From: Planctomycetota bacterium
Lineage (GTDB): Bacteria; Planctomycetota; Phycisphaerae; Sedimentisphaerales; SM23-30
NCBI GenBank assembly: GCA_029573975.1
Contig: JAKQBU010000030.1
Span: 1 to 8,226 of the forward strand
DNA: 8,226 bases
Reading direction: 5' to 3'
The position numbers and the translations under genes were made by a program. This document shows, piece by piece, positions 550 through 8,217 of the stretch. The notes below the pieces were generated by a model. It did not search any database and was not told the DNA's origin. It saw nothing but the letters and a program-made list of their open reading frames with translations. The stretch's first letter is position 1. Each line of letters begins with the position of its first letter.

Positions 550-2373
550 TTATCCTACCGGAACCGGGCCTACCACCGCCTCGTAATCCGTCATGCTGCT
601 CCGGTCCCCGCGCAAAATCTGCCGGCACAGCATTGTCACCCGGGCCGCATGATCGCGGATATACCGCCGGGCCACCACCCCCTTGTGAGCACGCACCTGG
701 CGATAACTGTCTATCCCGTCCCCATTGCCGCCCTGCGCCGGCTGGGTCGTAAAAACATCCTGCCGGCGGGGCTCCGCCACGCTCTGCTGCAGGAACAAAT
801 GCCCCACAATCAGCAGGATCGCCGCATCCACCAGCTTGCGCCCCTGCAAGTCCATATATTCCGTCCCCGGCTGGCTCTTCACAAAGCCAATGGCCTCCGC
901 CAGTTCCGTCCGCCCCTGCTTCAAAAGGTCCACCAATTCCGTTACCTGCTCCGGATACCCATACTCTTCCTGCTCCAGCAGATACTTCTCCGCCGTCCCG
1001 TTGCACACCCCGCGCACCGCCGCAATTATCTGCAACTGGCTGGTCCCCTCATAGATCGTCGTGATCCGAGCATCCCGCGCATACCGCTCCACCGGATAAT
1101 CCTTCATATACCCGCTGCCGCCCAGCACCTGAATCGCGTCATACGCCACCCGGTTGCACATCTCACTGGCGTAATACTTGCTCATCGGCGTCAGCATCGC
1201 CGACAGCCGCTTGTATTTCTTCTCCTGATTCTTCAGCTCCTTCTTAACGTCCTTGTCCAGTTGTTCCTCAAACTCCAGTTTCCGCAAAATACCATTTTCG
1301 TTATCCACGACAAAACAGGTTTCATACGTCAGCGACCGCGCCGCCTCAATATCGATCTTCATCTCCACCAGCAGATCCCGCACCGCCGGAAACGCCTCAA
1401 TCGCCATGCCAAACTGCCTGCGGCTGGCCGCGTAATCCCGCGCCACCCGGAACGCCGCCTCCGCGATCCCCAGCGATTGCGCCGCGATCCCCACCCGCGC
1501 CCCGTTCATCAGGCTCATCACATACGTCACCAGCCCCCGCTGCCGCTCCCCAATCAGCTTGCACGGCGTATGATTGAAAAACAGCTCGCATGTCGGCGAT
1601 CCGTGAATCCCCAGCTTATTCTCCAGCCGCCGCACCTTCACCGTCGGACCCCGGTCGCACACAAACAAACTCAGCCCCAGCCCCCCGCTGCGGTCCGGCT
1701 CGCTCCGCGCCAGCACCAGCAGCACCTCCCCGCACCCGTTGGTGATGAATCGCTTCACCCCGTGCAGACGCCACTGCCCCTGTTCATCCTGATACGCCCG
1801 CAGCTTCACCGCCTGCAAATCACTGCCCGCATCCGGCTCCGTCAGCACCATCGCCCCTGTCAGCTTCCCCTCCGCAAACCCCGGCAGATATTCCTGCTTG
1901 ATGGCCTCGTCCGCAAAGGCATTGATCGTCTCGGCGATCCCCTGCAGCCCGTAAATATTCATCAGCGCCGCGTCCGCCCGCGACACAATCTCATTGCTCA
2001 TCGTATAAAGCAGATTCGGACAATTGAGTCCCCCAAACCGGTGCGGCAGCGTACAGCCCATCACCTGCGCCTGCGCCAGCTTCTCCAGGTTCTCCTGCGT
2101 ACCCGGCGCATAACTCACCGTCCCGTCCTCATGCAGCGTATTGCCCGCCAAATCCACCGCTTCCGCCCGCGGGGCGATGTACTCCCCGCTCACCTGGCCT
2201 ACGATCTCCAGAATATGGTCGTAGTTATCCACCGCCTCCTCCGCGCTGCCCGGCGCCCAGTCATACGTCCCGCTGGCCGAAAAATCCCCCTCCATGATCT
2301 CCGCCAGCCGCTTCAGATCAAAATGCCGAAACAAAAAACGAATGTCATCATTATCCGTATAAAAATTACTCAT
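550..2373 (-). CDS. Acyl-CoA dehydrogenase, long (about 600 aa) form
   Basis: This FAD-dependent enzyme oxidises acyl-CoA to trans-2-enoyl-CoA, or runs in reverse with a suitable ETF. The 607 residues begin with an N-terminal extension, NFYTDNDDIRFLF (3-15), typical of a long family often found beside EtfBA. The core follows: LPHRFGGLN (109-117), MVLTEPDAGSD (175-185; flavin and substrate loop), KRFITNG (207-213), NKLGIHGSPTCEL (252-264), SRRQFG (317-322) and GGSGYMKDYPVER (418-430). IYEGTSQLQ (440-448) carries the probable catalytic base Glu442, matching Glu376 of medium-chain dehydrogenase. A charged segment at 365-390 and a C-terminal domain (about 460-595) complete it. Substrate length cannot be read from sequence. 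The ribosome-binding site is poor (GAGAG, or AAAGG only 2 nt from the ATG), but the N-terminal match supports this start. It is the last gene of the operon. Confidence 0.93.
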   Translation of the reverse strand: MSNFYTDNDDIRFLFRHFDLKRLAEIMEGDFSASGTYDWAPGSAEEAVDNYDHILEIVGQVSGEYIAPRAEAVDLAGNTLHEDGTVSYAPGTQENLEKLAQAQVMGCTLPHRFGGLNCPNLLYTMSNEIVSRADAALMNIYGLQGIAETINAFADEAIKQEYLPGFAEGKLTGAMVLTEPDAGSDLQAVKLRAYQDEQGQWRLHGVKRFITNGCGEVLLVLARSEPDRSGGLGLSLFVCDRGPTVKVRRLENKLGIHGSPTCELFFNHTPCKLIGERQRGLVTYVMSLMNGARVGIAAQSLGIAEAAFRVARDYAASRRQFGMAIEAFPAVRDLLVEMKIDIEAARSLTYETCFVVDNENGILRKLEFEEQLDKDVKKELKNQEKKYKRLSAMLTPMSKYYASEMCNRVAYDAIQVLGGSGYMKDYPVERYARDARITTIYEGTSQLQIIAAVRGVCNGTAEKYLLEQEEYGYPEQVTELVDLLKQGRTELAEAIGFVKSQPGTEYMDLQGRKLVDAAILLIVGHLFLQQSVAEPRRQDVFTTQPAQGGNGDGIDSYRQVRAHKGVVARRYIRDHAARVTMLCRQILRGDRSSMTDYEAVVGPVPVG

Positions 2374-2397
2374 GCCTTTTCTCTCTTGCTATTCTCT

Positions 2398-2411
2398 TCC
2401 GCCGCGGCGGA
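2398..2411. repeat. 14-bp perfect palindrome in the etfA-dehydrogenase gap
   Basis: TCCGCCGCGGCGGA is a perfect palindrome inside the 53-nt gap between etfA and the dehydrogenase gene. In the transcript it can fold into a 5-bp GC-rich hairpin with a CGCG loop. The rest of the gap is almost all purine on the mRNA strand. There is no U-run after it, so it is not an intrinsic terminator. An mRNA-stability element or a protein-binding site are possibilities. Confidence 0.55.
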
Positions 2412-2426
2412 TTTCTTCCTTTTCTC

Positions 2427-3455
2427 TTACCCTTTGTTCCTTATTGTCTTGGTCAATCGCGGCACCACCTCGCACAAATCGCCCTGGATCCGGTAATGCG
2501 CAAACTGAAAAATCGGGGCCTCCGGGTCGTTGTTGATTGCCACGATCTTGGCCGACTCCGCCATCCCCGCATAATGCTGCACCGCTCCGCTGATTCCCGC
2601 CGCGATATACAGCGCCGGCCGCACCGTCGTGCCCGTCTGCCCCACCTGGTGGTCATGGTCGATATACCCCAGGTCCACCGCCGCCCGGCTGGCGCCCACC
2701 GCCCCGCCCAGGCAATTCGCCAGCTCCCACAACATCTGAAAATTCTCCCGGCTGCCCACCCCCGCCCCGCCGGCCACGATAATCCGCGACGCCTTCAAAT
2801 TCACCTTCTTCGCCTCATGGTGCACCTCCAGCACCTTCAGCGCCAGGTCCTCCGCCAACAGCGACACCTTCTCGCTCACCACTTCCCCGGCAAACTTGCC
2901 GTTGCGGACCGGCATCGCCATCACCCCTTCCCGCACCGTCGCCATCTGCGGCCACCGGTCGAAATTCACAATCGTCGCGATGATATTCCCGCCAAACGCC
3001 GGCCGAATCTGCAGCAGCAGATCCTTATGCACTTCCTGGGTCTTGCTGATTTCAAAATCCCCGATCTGCAGGTCCGTGCAATCCGCCGTCAGGCCCGCCC
3101 GCATCGCCGAGGCCACCCGCGGCGCCAGATCCCGGCCCACCGCCGTCGCCCCATACAGCACAATCTGCGGCTTGTGTTTGGTAATCAGCTCACAAAGCAC
3201 CTTGGCATATGGGATTGTCTGGAAATGCTCCAGCAAATCATCTTCCACCACATACACCTTGTTCGCCCCAAAGGCAATCAGCTCAGCGCTCAGCGGCCGG
3301 ATATTCTTCCCCGCCACCACCGCCGCCAGCTTGACCCCCAGCTTATCCGCCAGCTCCCGCCCCTTGCCCAGCAATTCCAGCGGCACATCGCTCAGCCGCC
3401 CCGCCCGCTGCTCCGCGAATACCCACACTTCACCTTTTCGATTCACTTCTATCAT
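2427..3455 (-). CDS. etfA: Electron transfer flavoprotein subunit alpha (EtfA/FixB family)
   Basis: The 342-residue protein is the FAD-binding alpha subunit and partner of the EtfB encoded upstream. The N-terminal domain contains GATAVGRDLAPRVA (102-115) and LTADCTDL (122-129). RPAFGGNIIATI (151-162) ends this domain. The C-terminal FAD domain has VAGGAGVGSRENFQML (227-242), ASRAAVDLGY (255-264), VGQTGTTVRPALYIAAGISG (271-290) with QHYAGM (293-298), and INNDPEAPIF (307-316). These are the classical EtfA signature blocks. Two positions are less usual: Thr276 where a basic residue commonly follows QTG, and AHYRIQGD (319-326) in place of the common ADYGIVGD. The length is within the family's usual range of about 310-350. 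The ATG at 3455 follows an AAGGTAGG site. It is the middle gene of the operon, 53 nt before the dehydrogenase. Confidence 0.95.
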   Translation of the reverse strand: MIEVNRKGEVWVFAEQRAGRLSDVPLELLGKGRELADKLGVKLAAVVAGKNIRPLSAELIAFGANKVYVVEDDLLEHFQTIPYAKVLCELITKHKPQIVLYGATAVGRDLAPRVASAMRAGLTADCTDLQIGDFEISKTQEVHKDLLLQIRPAFGGNIIATIVNFDRWPQMATVREGVMAMPVRNGKFAGEVVSEKVSLLAEDLALKVLEVHHEAKKVNLKASRIIVAGGAGVGSRENFQMLWELANCLGGAVGASRAAVDLGYIDHDHQVGQTGTTVRPALYIAAGISGAVQHYAGMAESAKIVAINNDPEAPIFQFAHYRIQGDLCEVVPRLTKTIRNKG

Positions 3456-3493
3456 CTCGACCTACCTTATTTACTGTTTGTTTTTCTATTCTT

Positions 3494-4363
3494 TTATCCA
3501 ATCGTGTGGTCTTCAATCAGCTCATGCACCATCGCCCGGATCCCCTCCTCACTCGGATCGATATCCTTCTGCTCCGTCGCCGTCAGCACCACACTCTGAA
3601 TCCGGTGCACCTTGGTCGGACTGCCGTCCCGCCCGCACCATTGCAGATCCGCCGCCACATCATCCAGATTCCACTCCTCAATCAATAATCCCTTCTCCTG
3701 CAAGGCTTTCACCTCCGCTTCACCCGCCCCCGCCTTCCGCAACTCCGCCGGACTCTTCGCCTTCTTGTATTTCATCAGCCATTTCGCCCCCGCCGGCCGC
3801 GGCTCATTCGCCGTCTCCATCACCGTCAGCAGAATCGGCAGCCGGCCCTGAATCTTTTCCCAGCCCGCCCCGATATTCCGCCGCACCGTCACCTCGGTCC
3901 CCTGCAAAGCAATCAGTTCCTCCACATACGTAATCTGCGGAATATTCAGCTTTTCCGCCATCTGCGGCCCCACCTGGGCCGTATCCCCGTCGATCGCCTG
4001 CCGGCCGCACAACACCAAATCATACTTCAGCTTCCGCACAGCACAGCTCAAAATGTAACTCGTTGCCAGCGTATCACTTGCGGCACACCGCCGGTCCGTC
4101 ACCAGAATCGCCCGGTCCGCGCCCCGGTACAATCCCTCCCGCAGCACCTCGCAGGCACTCGGCAGGCCCATCGTCATGATTGTCACCGTTCCGCCGTGCT
4201 TCTCCCTGATCGACAGCGCCAGCTCCAGCGCATTCAAATCCTCCGGATTGAATATCGCCGGCAGCGCCGCCCGGTTCACCGTCCCGTCATCATTCATCGC
4301 CTTGCCCGTCACCGCCTTGGTGTCCGGGACCTGCTTCACTAATACCACGCAATCGTATGGCAT
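3494..4363 (-). CDS. etfB: Electron transfer flavoprotein subunit beta (EtfB/FixA family)
   Basis: The 289-residue protein is the beta half of the EtfAB heterodimer, which carries electrons between acyl-CoA dehydrogenases and other redox partners. Visible family marks are the N-terminal strand and loop VLVKQVPDT (7-15), the FNPEDLNALELAL helix start (38-50), LREGLYRGADRA (74-85) and GRQAIDGDTAQVGP (120-133). The last motif lines the cofactor pocket of domain III. In mitochondrial-type ETFs this loop reads DDDxNQTGQ and binds AMP; the DGDTAQVGP form is usual in FixA-like and FAD-bifurcating ETFs, so a second FAD is possible but not proven. The length is somewhat above the usual 250-265, with a charged segment around 198-230. 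The start has a strong AAGGAGA site 8 nt upstream and lies just below a good promoter. It is the first gene of a three-gene operon, 38 nt before etfA. Confidence 0.95.
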   Translation of the reverse strand: MPYDCVVLVKQVPDTKAVTGKAMNDDGTVNRAALPAIFNPEDLNALELALSIREKHGGTVTIMTMGLPSACEVLREGLYRGADRAILVTDRRCAASDTLATSYILSCAVRKLKYDLVLCGRQAIDGDTAQVGPQMAEKLNIPQITYVEELIALQGTEVTVRRNIGAGWEKIQGRLPILLTVMETANEPRPAGAKWLMKYKKAKSPAELRKAGAGEAEVKALQEKGLLIEEWNLDDVAADLQWCGRDGSPTKVHRIQSVVLTATEQKDIDPSEEGIRAMVHELIEDHTIG

Positions 4364-4615: not shown

Positions 4616-5728
4616 CTACGGCAGACTGTCCAAAAACGACTGGTTGGTTGGGTGTTTCTTCATCGCCTTGATTAGCGTCTCCACATCCTGGCCCACCTGC
4701 AGGCTGTCCAGATGCCGCCGCAGCCGGAAAATCTTCTGCAAGGCCTCCTTCCCGATGAGCAATTCCTCCTTCCGGGTCCCCGACTGGGAAATATTGATCG
4801 CCGGGTAAATCCGGCGGTTCGCCAGGTTCCGGTCCAGCACCAGCTCCATGTTCCCCGTGCCCTTGAACTCCTGAAAGATTACTTCATCCATCCGGCTGCC
4901 CGTATCCACCAGCGCTGTGGCGACAATCGTCAGCGAACCGCCCCGCTCATTCTTGCGGGCCAGCCCGAAAATCTGCTTCGGAAGCTGCAGCGCCCGGATG
5001 TCAATCCCGCCGCTCAGCGTCCGCCCGCTCGACTTCGTCCAACTGTTAAACGCCCGCCCCAGCCGCGTGATCGAATCCAGCAGAATCACCACGTCCCGAC
5101 CCACCTCCACCTGCCGCTTCGCCTTCTCCATCGCCAACTGCGCCGTCCGCACATGGCTGTCAATCGTCTTGTCGTTCGACGAGGCGATCACCTCCCCCTT
5201 GATATTCCGCCGCATATCCGTCACTTCTTCCGGCCTCTCATCGATCAGCAGCACAATCAGGTCAATCTCCGGATGATTCGTCGTAATCCCGTTGGATATC
5301 TGCTGCAAAAGTATCGTCTTCCCCGTCCGCGGCGGAGCCACAATCAGCCCCCGCTGCCCTTTCCCGATCGGCGTCAGCAGATCAATCACCCGCGTCCCCA
5401 GCGGCTCCGGACCCGTCTCCAGCCGGATCCGCTCCTGCGGATCCACAACAATGAACGTATCGAAACTCACCCGCGTATCCAGATAATCATCTGCCTTCAG
5501 ACCGTTAATCTTCAGCAGCTCCACGACATCCGGGCTTTTCCCGCGTTTGCCCTCATACCGCGCCTCGATCATCAAGCCGTTCCGCAAACGCAGATCCTTG
5601 ATGGTATTCATGCTCACAAACGGATCGATATCCCGCGGGATATAAAAATACCCCGGGTCCCGCAGAAAGCCATGCCCCTTCTCCGTTATCTCCAGCATCC
5701 CTGATACAATGTTATTTTCTTCCGTCAT
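4616..5728 (-). CDS. rho: Transcription termination factor Rho (short form without N-terminal helical domain)
   Basis: This is the hexameric RNA-dependent ATPase helicase that terminates transcription. The 370-residue protein opens with the cold-shock-like RNA-binding domain (about 8-80; GHGFLRD at 18-24). The ATPase core follows: Walker A APPRTGKT (131-138), catalytic glutamate in LIDERPEEVT (Glu164), Walker B VVILLDSITRL (Asp218), Q-loop region GGIDIRALQLPKQ (240-252), R-loop KGTGNMEL (289-296) and arginine finger SGTRKEELL (Arg319). E. coli Rho has 419 residues; the missing part is the N-terminal helix bundle. The reading frame stays open upstream to 5947, but that stretch overlaps the preceding gene and does not look like Rho. 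ATG at 5728 has a strong AAGAGGTG site overlapping the upstream stop codon, so translational coupling is likely. His19 stands where E. coli has an RNA-stacking phenylalanine. Confidence 0.96.
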   Translation of the reverse strand: MTEENNIVSGMLEITEKGHGFLRDPGYFYIPRDIDPFVSMNTIKDLRLRNGLMIEARYEGKRGKSPDVVELLKINGLKADDYLDTRVSFDTFIVVDPQERIRLETGPEPLGTRVIDLLTPIGKGQRGLIVAPPRTGKTILLQQISNGITTNHPEIDLIVLLIDERPEEVTDMRRNIKGEVIASSNDKTIDSHVRTAQLAMEKAKRQVEVGRDVVILLDSITRLGRAFNSWTKSSGRTLSGGIDIRALQLPKQIFGLARKNERGGSLTIVATALVDTGSRMDEVIFQEFKGTGNMELVLDRNLANRRIYPAINISQSGTRKEELLIGKEALQKIFRLRRHLDSLQVGQDVETLIKAMKKHPTNQSFLDSLP

Positions 5729-5730
5729 GA

Positions 5731-5738
5731 CACCTCTT
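5731..5738 (-). promoter_or_regulatory. rho ribosome-binding site overlapping the upstream stop codon
   Basis: The minus strand reads CTAAGAGGTGTCATG: the TAA stop of the upstream gene (5737-5739) runs into AAGAGGTG, with the rho ATG 2 nt further on. The overlap fixes the rho start at 5728 and suggests that ribosomes finishing the one-carbon gene help to initiate rho. Confidence 0.75.
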
Positions 5739-8202
5739 AGCGACTGGTCTTTCGGTTCGCGCGACAGAATTCCCCCATCAATTCCATCGCCTTCATACTC
5801 CGTTCCGCACTGCCGTCCTGCCTGGCAAACGCATCCACCAGCTCCAGCAGTTCCGCATCCACCGGCTTCAGCCCGTATTCGTGCGTCACGTTCACTATCC
5901 CCGCATCCAGGCCATATTCCATCGCCTTGGCCACATAGGCGCGGCATACGCCGATCTTCCGCCCCGGTAAATCCTTCACACTGTTGGATATACCCAGCGA
6001 AGTATGCACTCCCTTCATCTTCGGATCCGTCATGATCTTCCGGATCGTCTCAAACGCCCGGTACGTATAACCGGGGGTGTCCGGCGACATCGGCATATCG
6101 ATCGCCAGCGGAAACACCGTCGAATCAAAGAACAGATCATCCGGCGTAAATCCATATTTCCCTACTGCCGCCTCAAAGATCTCCTGGGCCATCCGGTACA
6201 ACTGATCCGTCGAATACGCTCCATCGCTGCCTGCTTCCTTGTCCGATACCAGAAGCCCAATCACCTTGAAGGGATACTTCTTCCCTAAGGGAAGTATTCT
6301 TTCTATTGTATAGGTCTTCACCGAATTAATCAATGGCTTCGGCGAATTTTTCGGCAGATCCCGGTAATATTCCTCCAGGCCCGCCTGCAAAACATTATCG
6401 TCACTGCTGTCCACGCACGGTGGTACGCCCTGGCTATGCTTCTTGACCAGCCGTACATACTGCCGCATCAGCTCCGCCGCCTGCTTCGGATCGTCCTCCC
6501 CAAACGCATCCACGTTAATCGCAATATAATCCGCATGGTACGCCACCTGCGAGGTAATCAGTGAAACCATATAATCCAGCGCCCCGCTGGGCTTCTCATA
6601 GGCATCCGCTCCCTTCCCCAGCAGCTCCCTCATCGCCGCCCCCGGCTTCGGTATGCTCGCATGCACACTCTCGCCGATCTGGATTAGCTTCACCTTCTTC
6701 ATATGATCTTTCTCAAACAAATAATTCAATATCGAAGACGTTCCTGCCAACTGGGCATCACGCTTGCGGTTCAGCGTCTCCGCCAACCTCTTCAATCCTT
6801 GTTCACCTTCACTGGCGGCCGCCTTGTAAATCAATTCGCCTACACAAGTTATATCCGGATTGTTCCCGCAGGTGCCATCCGGATTCGCGTCGCCACAGGG
6901 AGCATTTGTTAGTCCCTTTTCGCATTTGCCCATACTGCAAATGCCGAAATTCTCGACTAAAAAGCAGTCCCCGCACTCTTCACAGTCAAACATCATGGAT
7001 TTAACTGGCTTCTCAAATCCATCAAAAAACATCTTATACAGCATACCCCGCCCCTCACGCAAGCCTTTACTTGCACCAAATAATTTTTTTAGTCCCCCGT
7101 GCAGCCCCTTGCCCGGTGCCAAAAATACATTATGGAACATATCAAAAGACCGTTTATGGAACCCCGGCGACGGTTTCGACAGCGTCCGCCGCTGATTTTC
7201 CCCTTTATATAGGTAAAATCCGTCCTTTACCCCAAAATCCAGATTATTTTGATACTCCCGCCAGTTTTTTCCTATCTTTTGGGCTTTTTCCAGGATTTCG
7301 ATCATCATCCCAAAGTCCAATAACCCGCCCAGGTCGATCCCCACCGCCCCCATCTCCCGGAACATCGCCACCTGCTGGGCCGCCCGATCCATATGCTGCT
7401 CCGGCGTCTCACTGCCCAGCTTCTCAAACAACTCCTTCGTCACCACACAACCCGGCAGCTTCCCTGTGTGCATCAGCCGCGGCGCCGGCGTCATCGTCGT
7501 CAACACATAAACGTTCCCAAATACCGGCACCGCAAGACCTTGCTCCTTCAGATACCGGAACAGTTCCTCGCATTTCCGCCAATCCCACCCCAGCTGCGTA
7601 ATCAGGCAATCCGCCCCCGCCATTAGCTTCTTGCCCATTTTAAAATACTGCTGCATCTGCGACGCCTCGGTATATTTGTACTGCGATACCGCCGCCGCAA
7701 TATAAAACTGATGCGCCTTGTCAAAACTGCCCGGCTTGGCCTTGCCCAGGCTATCGCAGTTCATCTCCTTCAACAGCGCAATCAAATCCGTCGAGTCCAG
7801 CTCAAACACCCCCTTGCTGTCCGCCGGCTTATCCCCCGTTAGCGCCAGCACCGACTCGATCCCCAGCTTCTGTAAACCCGTTAAATAGCTGATGATACCG
7901 TCTTTATTATGATCCTTCGTCGTCACATGCGGCACCACATCCAAATCCGACCACAGACCCTTCTTATCCAGGATCGAATAGATATCCGCCGGACTCATGC
8001 TGGCCACCCCGCCCGGACTCTGCGGTATCGTGATCCCCGCCAGCTCAAATTCCCCCGGTATCCGGTCCTTCGCCGCCCCATATTCCTGCAAAAACTTCTC
8101 AAAATTCGCAATATTATGCCCCGGCAGAGGCACAAACTCCGCCAGCACTAAAAACCGCTCCGAACGCTGCACCAAACCCTTAAGTCTCTTCTTATCAGCC
8201 AT
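5737..8202 (-). CDS. MetF-MetV-methyltransferase fusion: methylenetetrahydrofolate reductase with cysteine-rich domain and AcsE/MetH-like pterin-binding domain
   Basis: The 821-residue protein has three modules. Residues 1-335 form a MetF-type flavin barrel: EFVPLPGHN (22-30), ALTGDKP (120-126) and LITQLGW (200-206) match the E. coli MetF segments holding Glu28, Asp120 and Gln183. Residues about 338-500 form a MetV (MTHFR_C) domain with eight cysteines (407, 410, 413, 422, 427, 436, 445, 453); known MetV proteins use such a set for two [4Fe-4S] clusters. Residues 503-821 form a pterin-binding barrel aligning with AcsE: IGES (509), CVDSSD (Asp598), INS (Asn626), FFDST (Asp693) and LGISN (Asn740). 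The inferred role is cytoplasmic reduction of methylene-THF to methyl-THF, then methyl transfer to a corrinoid protein; no corrinoid-binding domain is present. The ATG follows an AGGAGT site. The stop lies 8 nt before rho, so co-transcription is likely. The domain calls are firm; joint catalysis is inferred. Confidence 0.9.
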   Translation of the reverse strand: MADKKRLKGLVQRSERFLVLAEFVPLPGHNIANFEKFLQEYGAAKDRIPGEFELAGITIPQSPGGVASMSPADIYSILDKKGLWSDLDVVPHVTTKDHNKDGIISYLTGLQKLGIESVLALTGDKPADSKGVFELDSTDLIALLKEMNCDSLGKAKPGSFDKAHQFYIAAAVSQYKYTEASQMQQYFKMGKKLMAGADCLITQLGWDWRKCEELFRYLKEQGLAVPVFGNVYVLTTMTPAPRLMHTGKLPGCVVTKELFEKLGSETPEQHMDRAAQQVAMFREMGAVGIDLGGLLDFGMMIEILEKAQKIGKNWREYQNNLDFGVKDGFYLYKGENQRRTLSKPSPGFHKRSFDMFHNVFLAPGKGLHGGLKKLFGASKGLREGRGMLYKMFFDGFEKPVKSMMFDCEECGDCFLVENFGICSMGKCEKGLTNAPCGDANPDGTCGNNPDITCVGELIYKAAASEGEQGLKRLAETLNRKRDAQLAGTSSILNYLFEKDHMKKVKLIQIGESVHASIPKPGAAMRELLGKGADAYEKPSGALDYMVSLITSQVAYHADYIAINVDAFGEDDPKQAAELMRQYVRLVKKHSQGVPPCVDSSDDNVLQAGLEEYYRDLPKNSPKPLINSVKTYTIERILPLGKKYPFKVIGLLVSDKEAGSDGAYSTDQLYRMAQEIFEAAVGKYGFTPDDLFFDSTVFPLAIDMPMSPDTPGYTYRAFETIRKIMTDPKMKGVHTSLGISNSVKDLPGRKIGVCRAYVAKAMEYGLDAGIVNVTHEYGLKPVDAELLELVDAFARQDGSAERSMKAMELMGEFCRANRKTSR
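6274..6297. repeat. Inverted repeat inside the pterin-binding domain coding region
   Basis: CTTCCC-TAA-GGGAAG (6280-6294) is a perfect 6-bp stem with a 3-nt loop, and the flanks ATACTTC (6274-6280) and GAAGTAT (6291-6297) form an alternative 7-bp pairing. It lies in codons for about residues 636-643 of the fusion protein. It may only reflect codon choice. Confidence 0.35.
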
Positions 8203-8211
8203 TTATATTCT

Positions 8212-8217
8212 ACTCCT
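8212..8217 (-). promoter_or_regulatory. Ribosome-binding site of the MetF-MetV-methyltransferase gene
   Basis: AGGAGT on the minus strand lies 9 nt before the ATG at 8202. It supports this start. Only 24 nt upstream of the start are in the window, so the promoter and any riboswitch cannot be seen. Confidence 0.75.

Follow-up and report, generated by a model that had tools for sequence, protein, structure and literature searches.

A gene of the Planctomycetota joins an MTHFR barrel, the C-terminal cysteine domain of MetV and a methyltransferase-type barrel on a single polypeptide. We suggest, with a probability of roughly 0.56, that this fusion supplies the reductase and the pterin module of a split B12-dependent methionine synthase, whose parts are dispersed. 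The window, meaning the whole analysed stretch of 8,226 nucleotides, contains the fusion gene on the minus strand, where it runs from an ATG at 8202 to 5737 and encodes 821 amino acids with zero internal stops. The features of the fusion gene and its nearest neighbor are as follows.

8213..8217, minus strand: AGGAG, likely ribosome-binding site of the fusion gene (from the sequence)
5737..8202, minus strand: three-domain fusion gene, MTHFR, MetV C-terminal cysteine domain and methyl-THF:corrinoid methyltransferase-type barrel (reading frame, Pfam, NCBIfam, AlphaFold)
7273..8202, minus strand: MTHFR barrel, residues 1-310, with E22, D124 and Q203
7027..7272, minus strand: linker, residues 311-392, mostly helical and cysteine-free (secondary structure of the model, cysteine list, comparison with two stand-alone MetV)
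6793..7026, minus strand: MetV C-terminal (DUF5981) domain, residues 393-470, with C407, C410, C413, C422, C427, C436, C445 and C453 (Pfam, 1.3e-15)
5740..6696, minus strand: methyl-THF-binding methyltransferase-type barrel, residues 503-821, with D598, N626, D693 and N740
4616..5728, minus strand: transcription terminator Rho, short form of 370 amino acids, whose start lies 8 bases past the fusion stop (Pfam, NCBIfam)

The sequence-only reading had claimed three domains in one uninterrupted frame of 821 codons, which is borne out by the reading frame, Pfam, NCBIfam and AlphaFold. Pfam assigns MTHFR to residues 86-263 (5.5e-20), DUF5981 to residues 393-468 (1.3e-15) and Pterin_bind to residues 543-770 (1.3e-4), the last with 22.1 bits and below the cut-off of 25.5. 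The NCBIfam methyl-THF:corrinoid methyltransferase domain PRK07535 matches at 1.1e-24, with 87 bits and far below the cut-off of 259. The AlphaFold model is confident (pLDDT 87.6, pTM 0.85), agrees with the three domains as previously named and shows the third as a full barrel with high confidence. No Rfam match reached the gathering score in 10 sources covering 143,511 bases, the window extending 24 bases upstream of the fusion gene.

The fusion belongs to a family. Of 8000 candidates scored in a database search, 887 are relatives at E <= 0.001. The best 120 of these 887 have 53-92% identity over 87-100% of the query, and each of the 120 has precomputed MTHFR and DUF5981 domains. At least 120 relatives at such identity reject a chance frame, an assembly artefact or a lone fusion, and the architecture first noticed in a single stretch is not a one-off. 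A second search, from P0067, found 688 relatives, the best 120 of which are the matches listed. Named sources among the matches listed are Phycisphaerae, Sedimentisphaera..., Acidobacteriota and "Candidatus Amini...", which we take as Aminicenantes; MAGs are the form in which they appear. Viral contigs, searched with close patterns only, contained no relatives. A literature search, with most subscription journals outside its reach, retrieved, among the papers listed, no title or displayed abstract describing the three-domain fusion.

Genomic context was drawn from the relatives, using 15 carrier genomes. These comprise 12 loci (L001-L012), all of Planctomycetota, and three more from 199 sampled Planctomycetota genomes. 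The family is present in four of the 199 (G008, G139, G154 and G169), with G008 also among the 12. All three domains are complete in one frame in 12 of the 15 carriers. The frame of G011 is cut by the contig end within the barrel, and G008 has two copies, both without the first 170-270 residues in frame. The family barrel of G010 is a separate frame of 326 amino acids, with the MTHFR-MetV frame on another contig and cut by the contig end; hence, a one-chain fusion is not established there. The stand-alone barrel of G010 also means that not every carrier needs the barrel to be fused. Two-domain relatives with MTHFR and DUF5981 and no third domain occur in G088, G122, G153 and G179 (33-36% identity).

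The reductase part has the MTHFR barrel of MetVF reductases with the catalytic glutamate and the flavin/folate residues in place. We take E22, D124 and Q203 to have these roles, and they align with E28, D120 and Q183 of E. coli MetF. These three residues and the eight cysteines at 407-453 are invariant in 121 family sequences. A complete MetV was not found, as the fusion contains the DUF5981 part alone and the N-terminal part is missing. Two stand-alone MetV of other Planctomycetota (L094, L029) have ~130 residues with cysteines ahead of the eight-cysteine part. The cysteine-free, largely helical linker at 311-392 takes that place, and the fusion therefore holds half a MetV. The domain named MetV by the sequence-only reading thus retains the eight cysteines and DUF5981 but represents solely the C-terminal half. 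A sequence profile search found no solved MetV structure. The accessible part of one study (PMC8760232) reports reduced ferredoxin as the in vitro donor for MetVF reductases, which by analogy makes an iron-sulfur electron route into the reductase barrel of the fusion likely.

The third barrel has the contact residues of AcsE without being part of an AcsE clade. In an alignment counted by hand, D598, N626, D693 and N740 match residues 75, 96, 160 and 199 of AcsE chain 2e7f. The AcsE residues D75, N96, D160 and N199 are presumably the pterin contacts, all of which the fusion retains, and we assume equivalent roles for the four fusion residues. D598 is invariant among the 121 family sequences, and N626, D693 and N740 are conserved in 116, 115 and 114, respectively. 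The MetF and AcsE alignments together with this conservation uphold the earlier claim that key residues are kept in all three domains. The predicted fold resembles both AcsE and the folate domain of MetH. In the barrel tree, the fusion barrels do not group with AcsE and form a clade of their own (support 100/99), with three stand-alone modules of G052, G091 and G179 as the sister group (97/95). Forcing the fusion and AcsE into one clade is disfavored (p-AU 0.022), as is forcing the fusion and MetH together (p-AU 0.042), for a tree of 33 rows with long branches that excludes L065, L066 and the L008 fusion row, has just six Planctomycetota AcsE rows and recovers neither AcsE nor MetH rows as monophyletic. 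The AcsE-like label is hence supported by fold and contact residues but not by descent within AcsE. The C-terminal domain probably hands a methyl group to a vitamin-B12 protein.

The gene inventory of carriers points to methionine synthesis. Neither full MetH nor MetE was seen in 13 of the 15 carriers. Full MetH co-occurs with the fusion in G003 only and MetE is found in G008 only, which also has a fragmentary PF02965 match (46 positions) above the cut-off. As most of the related genomes examined lack an ordinary methionine synthase, the fusion may supply the folate half of a methionine-making system whose parts are dispersed. The homocysteine methyltransferase domain PF02574 was found in all 15 carriers. 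It is part of a homocysteine-methyltransferase/MTHFR protein in 14 and occurs as a stand-alone protein of 291-390 amino acids in 12; no stand-alone form was seen in G012 and partial ones in G001 (189 amino acids) and G003 (271 amino acids). Twelve carriers encode a small corrinoid protein with a strong PF02607 match (E about 1e-22 to 1e-25), which was not seen in G001, G005 and G012. A DLHDIG or DMHDIG motif (D-x-H-x-x-G) is found in 11 of 11 examined among these 12 proteins, and the one protein tested for domains (L043) has both B12-binding domains. A RACo/RamA-type reactivator (PF14574, E <= 6.5e-50) is encoded by 12 carriers. It was not seen in the MetH holder G003, nor in G004 and G011, which are also without MetH.

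Searches with PF00809 found, besides DHPS, no methyl-THF-type barrel except the family's own in 12 of the 15 carriers, the other proteins being MetH in G003 and one AcsE-type protein each in G008 and G010. The same model failed to detect the barrel of the fusion itself in G139 and in one G008 copy, so other divergent barrels might escape detection. Omitting G010 (n=14) leaves full MetH in 1, MetE in 1, PF02574 in 14, the strong corrinoid protein in 11, strong RACo in 11, AcsB in 2 and CdhD-type proteins in 3. The sequence-only reading had asked whether the genome encodes acetyl-CoA or methionine synthase genes and lacks separate metF, metV and acsE. Among the relatives, AcsB is present in 3 of 15, full MetH in 1 of 15 and a separate AcsE-type protein in each of G008 and G010, and G007 has, besides the fusion, two separate MetF and one MetV.

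Carriers differ from other genomes of the phylum. Controls were 30 same-phylum non-carriers, hand-picked among the matches listed for an MTHFR match in a frame of 600-760 amino acids; G070, with a frame of 616 amino acids, was left out and also has PF02965. The MetH reactivation domain PF02965 is present in 28 of the 30 controls, with the best match in a frame below 900 amino acids in four of these. Strong PF14574 matches occur in none of the 30, with weaker matches above the cut-off (E 3e-19 to 2e-6) in seven. PF02574 was found in the same frame in five of five controls tested (G146, G102, G192, G178 and G200). Fisher tests give P about 1e-8 for both the PF02965 and the RACo contrast, treating related genomes as independent, which is too optimistic as the genomes are kin. 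The carriers being mutually related MAGs of unstated completeness, absences and P values are soft. RACo is also found in the four two-domain genomes and in three genomes with a reversed MetV-MTHFR.

From the observed domains, residues, predicted fold and partner-gene co-occurrence in relatives, we infer the direction of the pathway, its electron donor and its physical partner, as well as the same partners in the window's own genome. The N-terminal flavin barrel would reduce methylene-THF to methyl-THF and, as in MetVF reductases, would probably receive the electrons through the cysteine-rich (iron-sulfur/zinc) domain. The C-terminal barrel would then bind methyl-THF and methylate a separate small corrinoid (B12) protein, which in turn could methylate homocysteine with a separate homocysteine methyltransferase. 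The corrinoid iron-sulfur protein might be a further acceptor in the few relatives with CODH/ACS. Channelling of methyl-folate within the fusion is a conjecture. The separate barrel gene in G010 is expected of a module and counts in favor of a split synthase. The tree also joins the fusion barrel to stand-alone folate modules, including that of G179 (L063) located immediately upstream of a homocysteine methyltransferase. Arguments against are that partner genes were not seen among the annotated neighbors, that some carriers miss the corrinoid protein, RACo or the stand-alone homocysteine methyltransferase, and that G003 has MetH and G008 MetE. A broader proposal is tentative. The fusion could couple methylene-THF reduction, using ferredoxin-level electrons, and methyl handover in one polypeptide, feeding one shared small corrinoid protein that would work in methionine synthesis and demethylation, as well as in acetyl-CoA synthesis in genomes that have it. 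Such a folate-to-corrinoid hub would replace MetH in parts of Planctomycetota and Aminicenantes.

The neighborhood of the fusion gene consists mostly of housekeeping genes among annotated neighbors, and no split-synthase partner genes were seen beside it. Rho likely shares a transcript with the fusion and is probably functionally unrelated to it; the short Rho protein had no match in frames called in L001-L012. Rho is followed by EtfB, EtfA and an acyl-CoA dehydrogenase of 607 amino acids (window 550-4363, minus strand). Among named hits, those nearest to this dehydrogenase are from Sedimentisphaerales. The best or second-best match of the Etf proteins is to electron-transfer subunits of acryloyl-CoA reductase, below the curated cut-offs. 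Eight of the 12 loci have a member of one gene family (L001:8456-9514 and seven others) some 120 to 670 bases upstream, in the same orientation as the fusion, and the two members tested (L001, L006) are ThiD2-thiamine phosphate synthases. The stand-alone barrel of G010 (L098:1550-2527, minus strand) is about 0.5 kb behind a thiamine phosphate synthase-like gene, as read from the translation, which is the place of the whole fusion in other carriers. In G008 (L008:1-12040), CODH and AcsB frames precede the second fusion copy and share its strand, and four frames of the opposite strand separate them from it. In G006 (C68:47090-49471), AcsB and CdhD-type matches share one frame of 1170 amino acids, suggesting an AcsB-AcsD fusion. 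Reversed-order MetV-MTHFR genes (L083:2940-5143, L084:4420-6629) are followed within 5 and 50 bases by a stand-alone folate module, with RACo genes nearby.

A reverse role in methyl catabolism, the main alternative, appears considerably less probable than methionine synthesis. A corrinoid system would draw methyl groups from methylated compounds and pass them to THF on the C-terminal barrel, after which the reductase barrel would oxidize them to methylene-THF, with electrons leaving via the cysteine domain. Two of the three nearest stand-alone barrels (G052, G091) immediately follow a MetV-MTHFR protein whose domains are in reversed order, with RACo and a 207-amino-acid protein with a DLHDIG motif beside the G052 module and RACo beside that of G091. 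A URO-D-family gene adjoins the small corrinoid gene in G169 (L044). The genomes G179, G052 and G091 have MetH-type proteins, which fits catabolism better and implies another or additional job of the module there. The fusion gene itself is in no such operon among annotated neighbors, though, and with neither full MetH nor MetE seen in 13 of 15 carriers, a biosynthetic role is to be expected. As far as the accessible text of a study in Ruegeria goes (PMC12478193), MtgD and MetF2 are proposed for betaine demethylation and MtgD reportedly works in either direction. Both roles are compatible and, by analogy, may occur together.

The sequence-only reading had proposed a condensed Wood-Ljungdahl methyl branch, in which the methyl group would pass from the barrel to the corrinoid iron-sulfur protein and on into acetyl-CoA synthesis. 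We consider this improbable for the fusion. AcsB and CdhD-type proteins are both present in G006, G008 and G010, no separate AcsE was seen in G006 by PF00809, and one G008 fusion copy is 3-5 kb from CODH and AcsB genes. However, no AcsB was found in 12 and no CdhD-type protein above the cut-off in 11 of the 15 carriers, an AcsE-type protein is encoded on its own close to CdhD genes in G008 and G010, and a joint clade with AcsE is disfavored (p-AU 0.022). With AcsB in three and CdhD-type proteins in four carriers, the acetogen methyl branch is rejected as the general role. The earlier interpretation hence survives in the three domains and their key residues, but not in a whole MetV, AcsE clade membership or a general Wood-Ljungdahl function. 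Least probable is a barrel that no longer transfers methyl groups and whose binding of methyl-THF serves to regulate or stabilize the reductase. N626, D693 and N740 do differ in 5 to 7 of the 121 sequences and are less strict than the reductase residues, yet D598 is invariant, the other contacts are 94-96% kept, a full barrel is predicted with high confidence and the barrel stands alone in G010.

If true, a split synthase with the fusion as its pterin module would constitute a methionine route missed by annotation in parts of two largely uncultured groups, whose members would pass for auxotrophs. The fusion would place a folate reductase on one chain with a module for corrinoid methyl transfer, providing a natural construct for testing methyl-folate channelling. 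Among the closest known systems is the split synthase of Phaeobacter and Ruegeria (MtgC, MtgD, MtgE, RamA-like). In the portions available of the two reports, the three-part B12 methionine synthase of Phaeobacter is established genetically with the same set of parts as the carriers (PMC5764234), and Ruegeria depends on its pterin module MtgD to make methionine and to grow on betaine, with metF2 downstream of mtgD (PMC12478193). Both this system and the carriers have a separate homocysteine methyltransferase, a small corrinoid protein, a RamA/RACo-type reactivator and a pterin module outside MetH, and mostly no MetH reactivation domain. In the fusion, by contrast, the pterin module is joined to MTHFR and a MetV-type cysteine domain. 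Acetogen MetVF reductases share the MTHFR barrel and the eight-cysteine DUF5981 domain, whereas the fusion is one chain without the N-terminal half of MetV and with a methyltransferase-type barrel. Unlike AcsE, the fusion barrel is in a separate clade and can be aligned to MetH folate domains at their C-terminal helices, and the corrinoid iron-sulfur protein is mostly absent from carrier genomes. Unlike the MetH folate domain, it has no attached homocysteine, corrinoid or reactivation domains and again falls in a separate clade (p-AU 0.042). Homocysteine S-methyltransferase/MTHFR proteins of the PRK08645 type, found in 14 of the 15 carriers, likewise combine MTHFR with another methionine-cycle domain, but with a different partner and in a different order.
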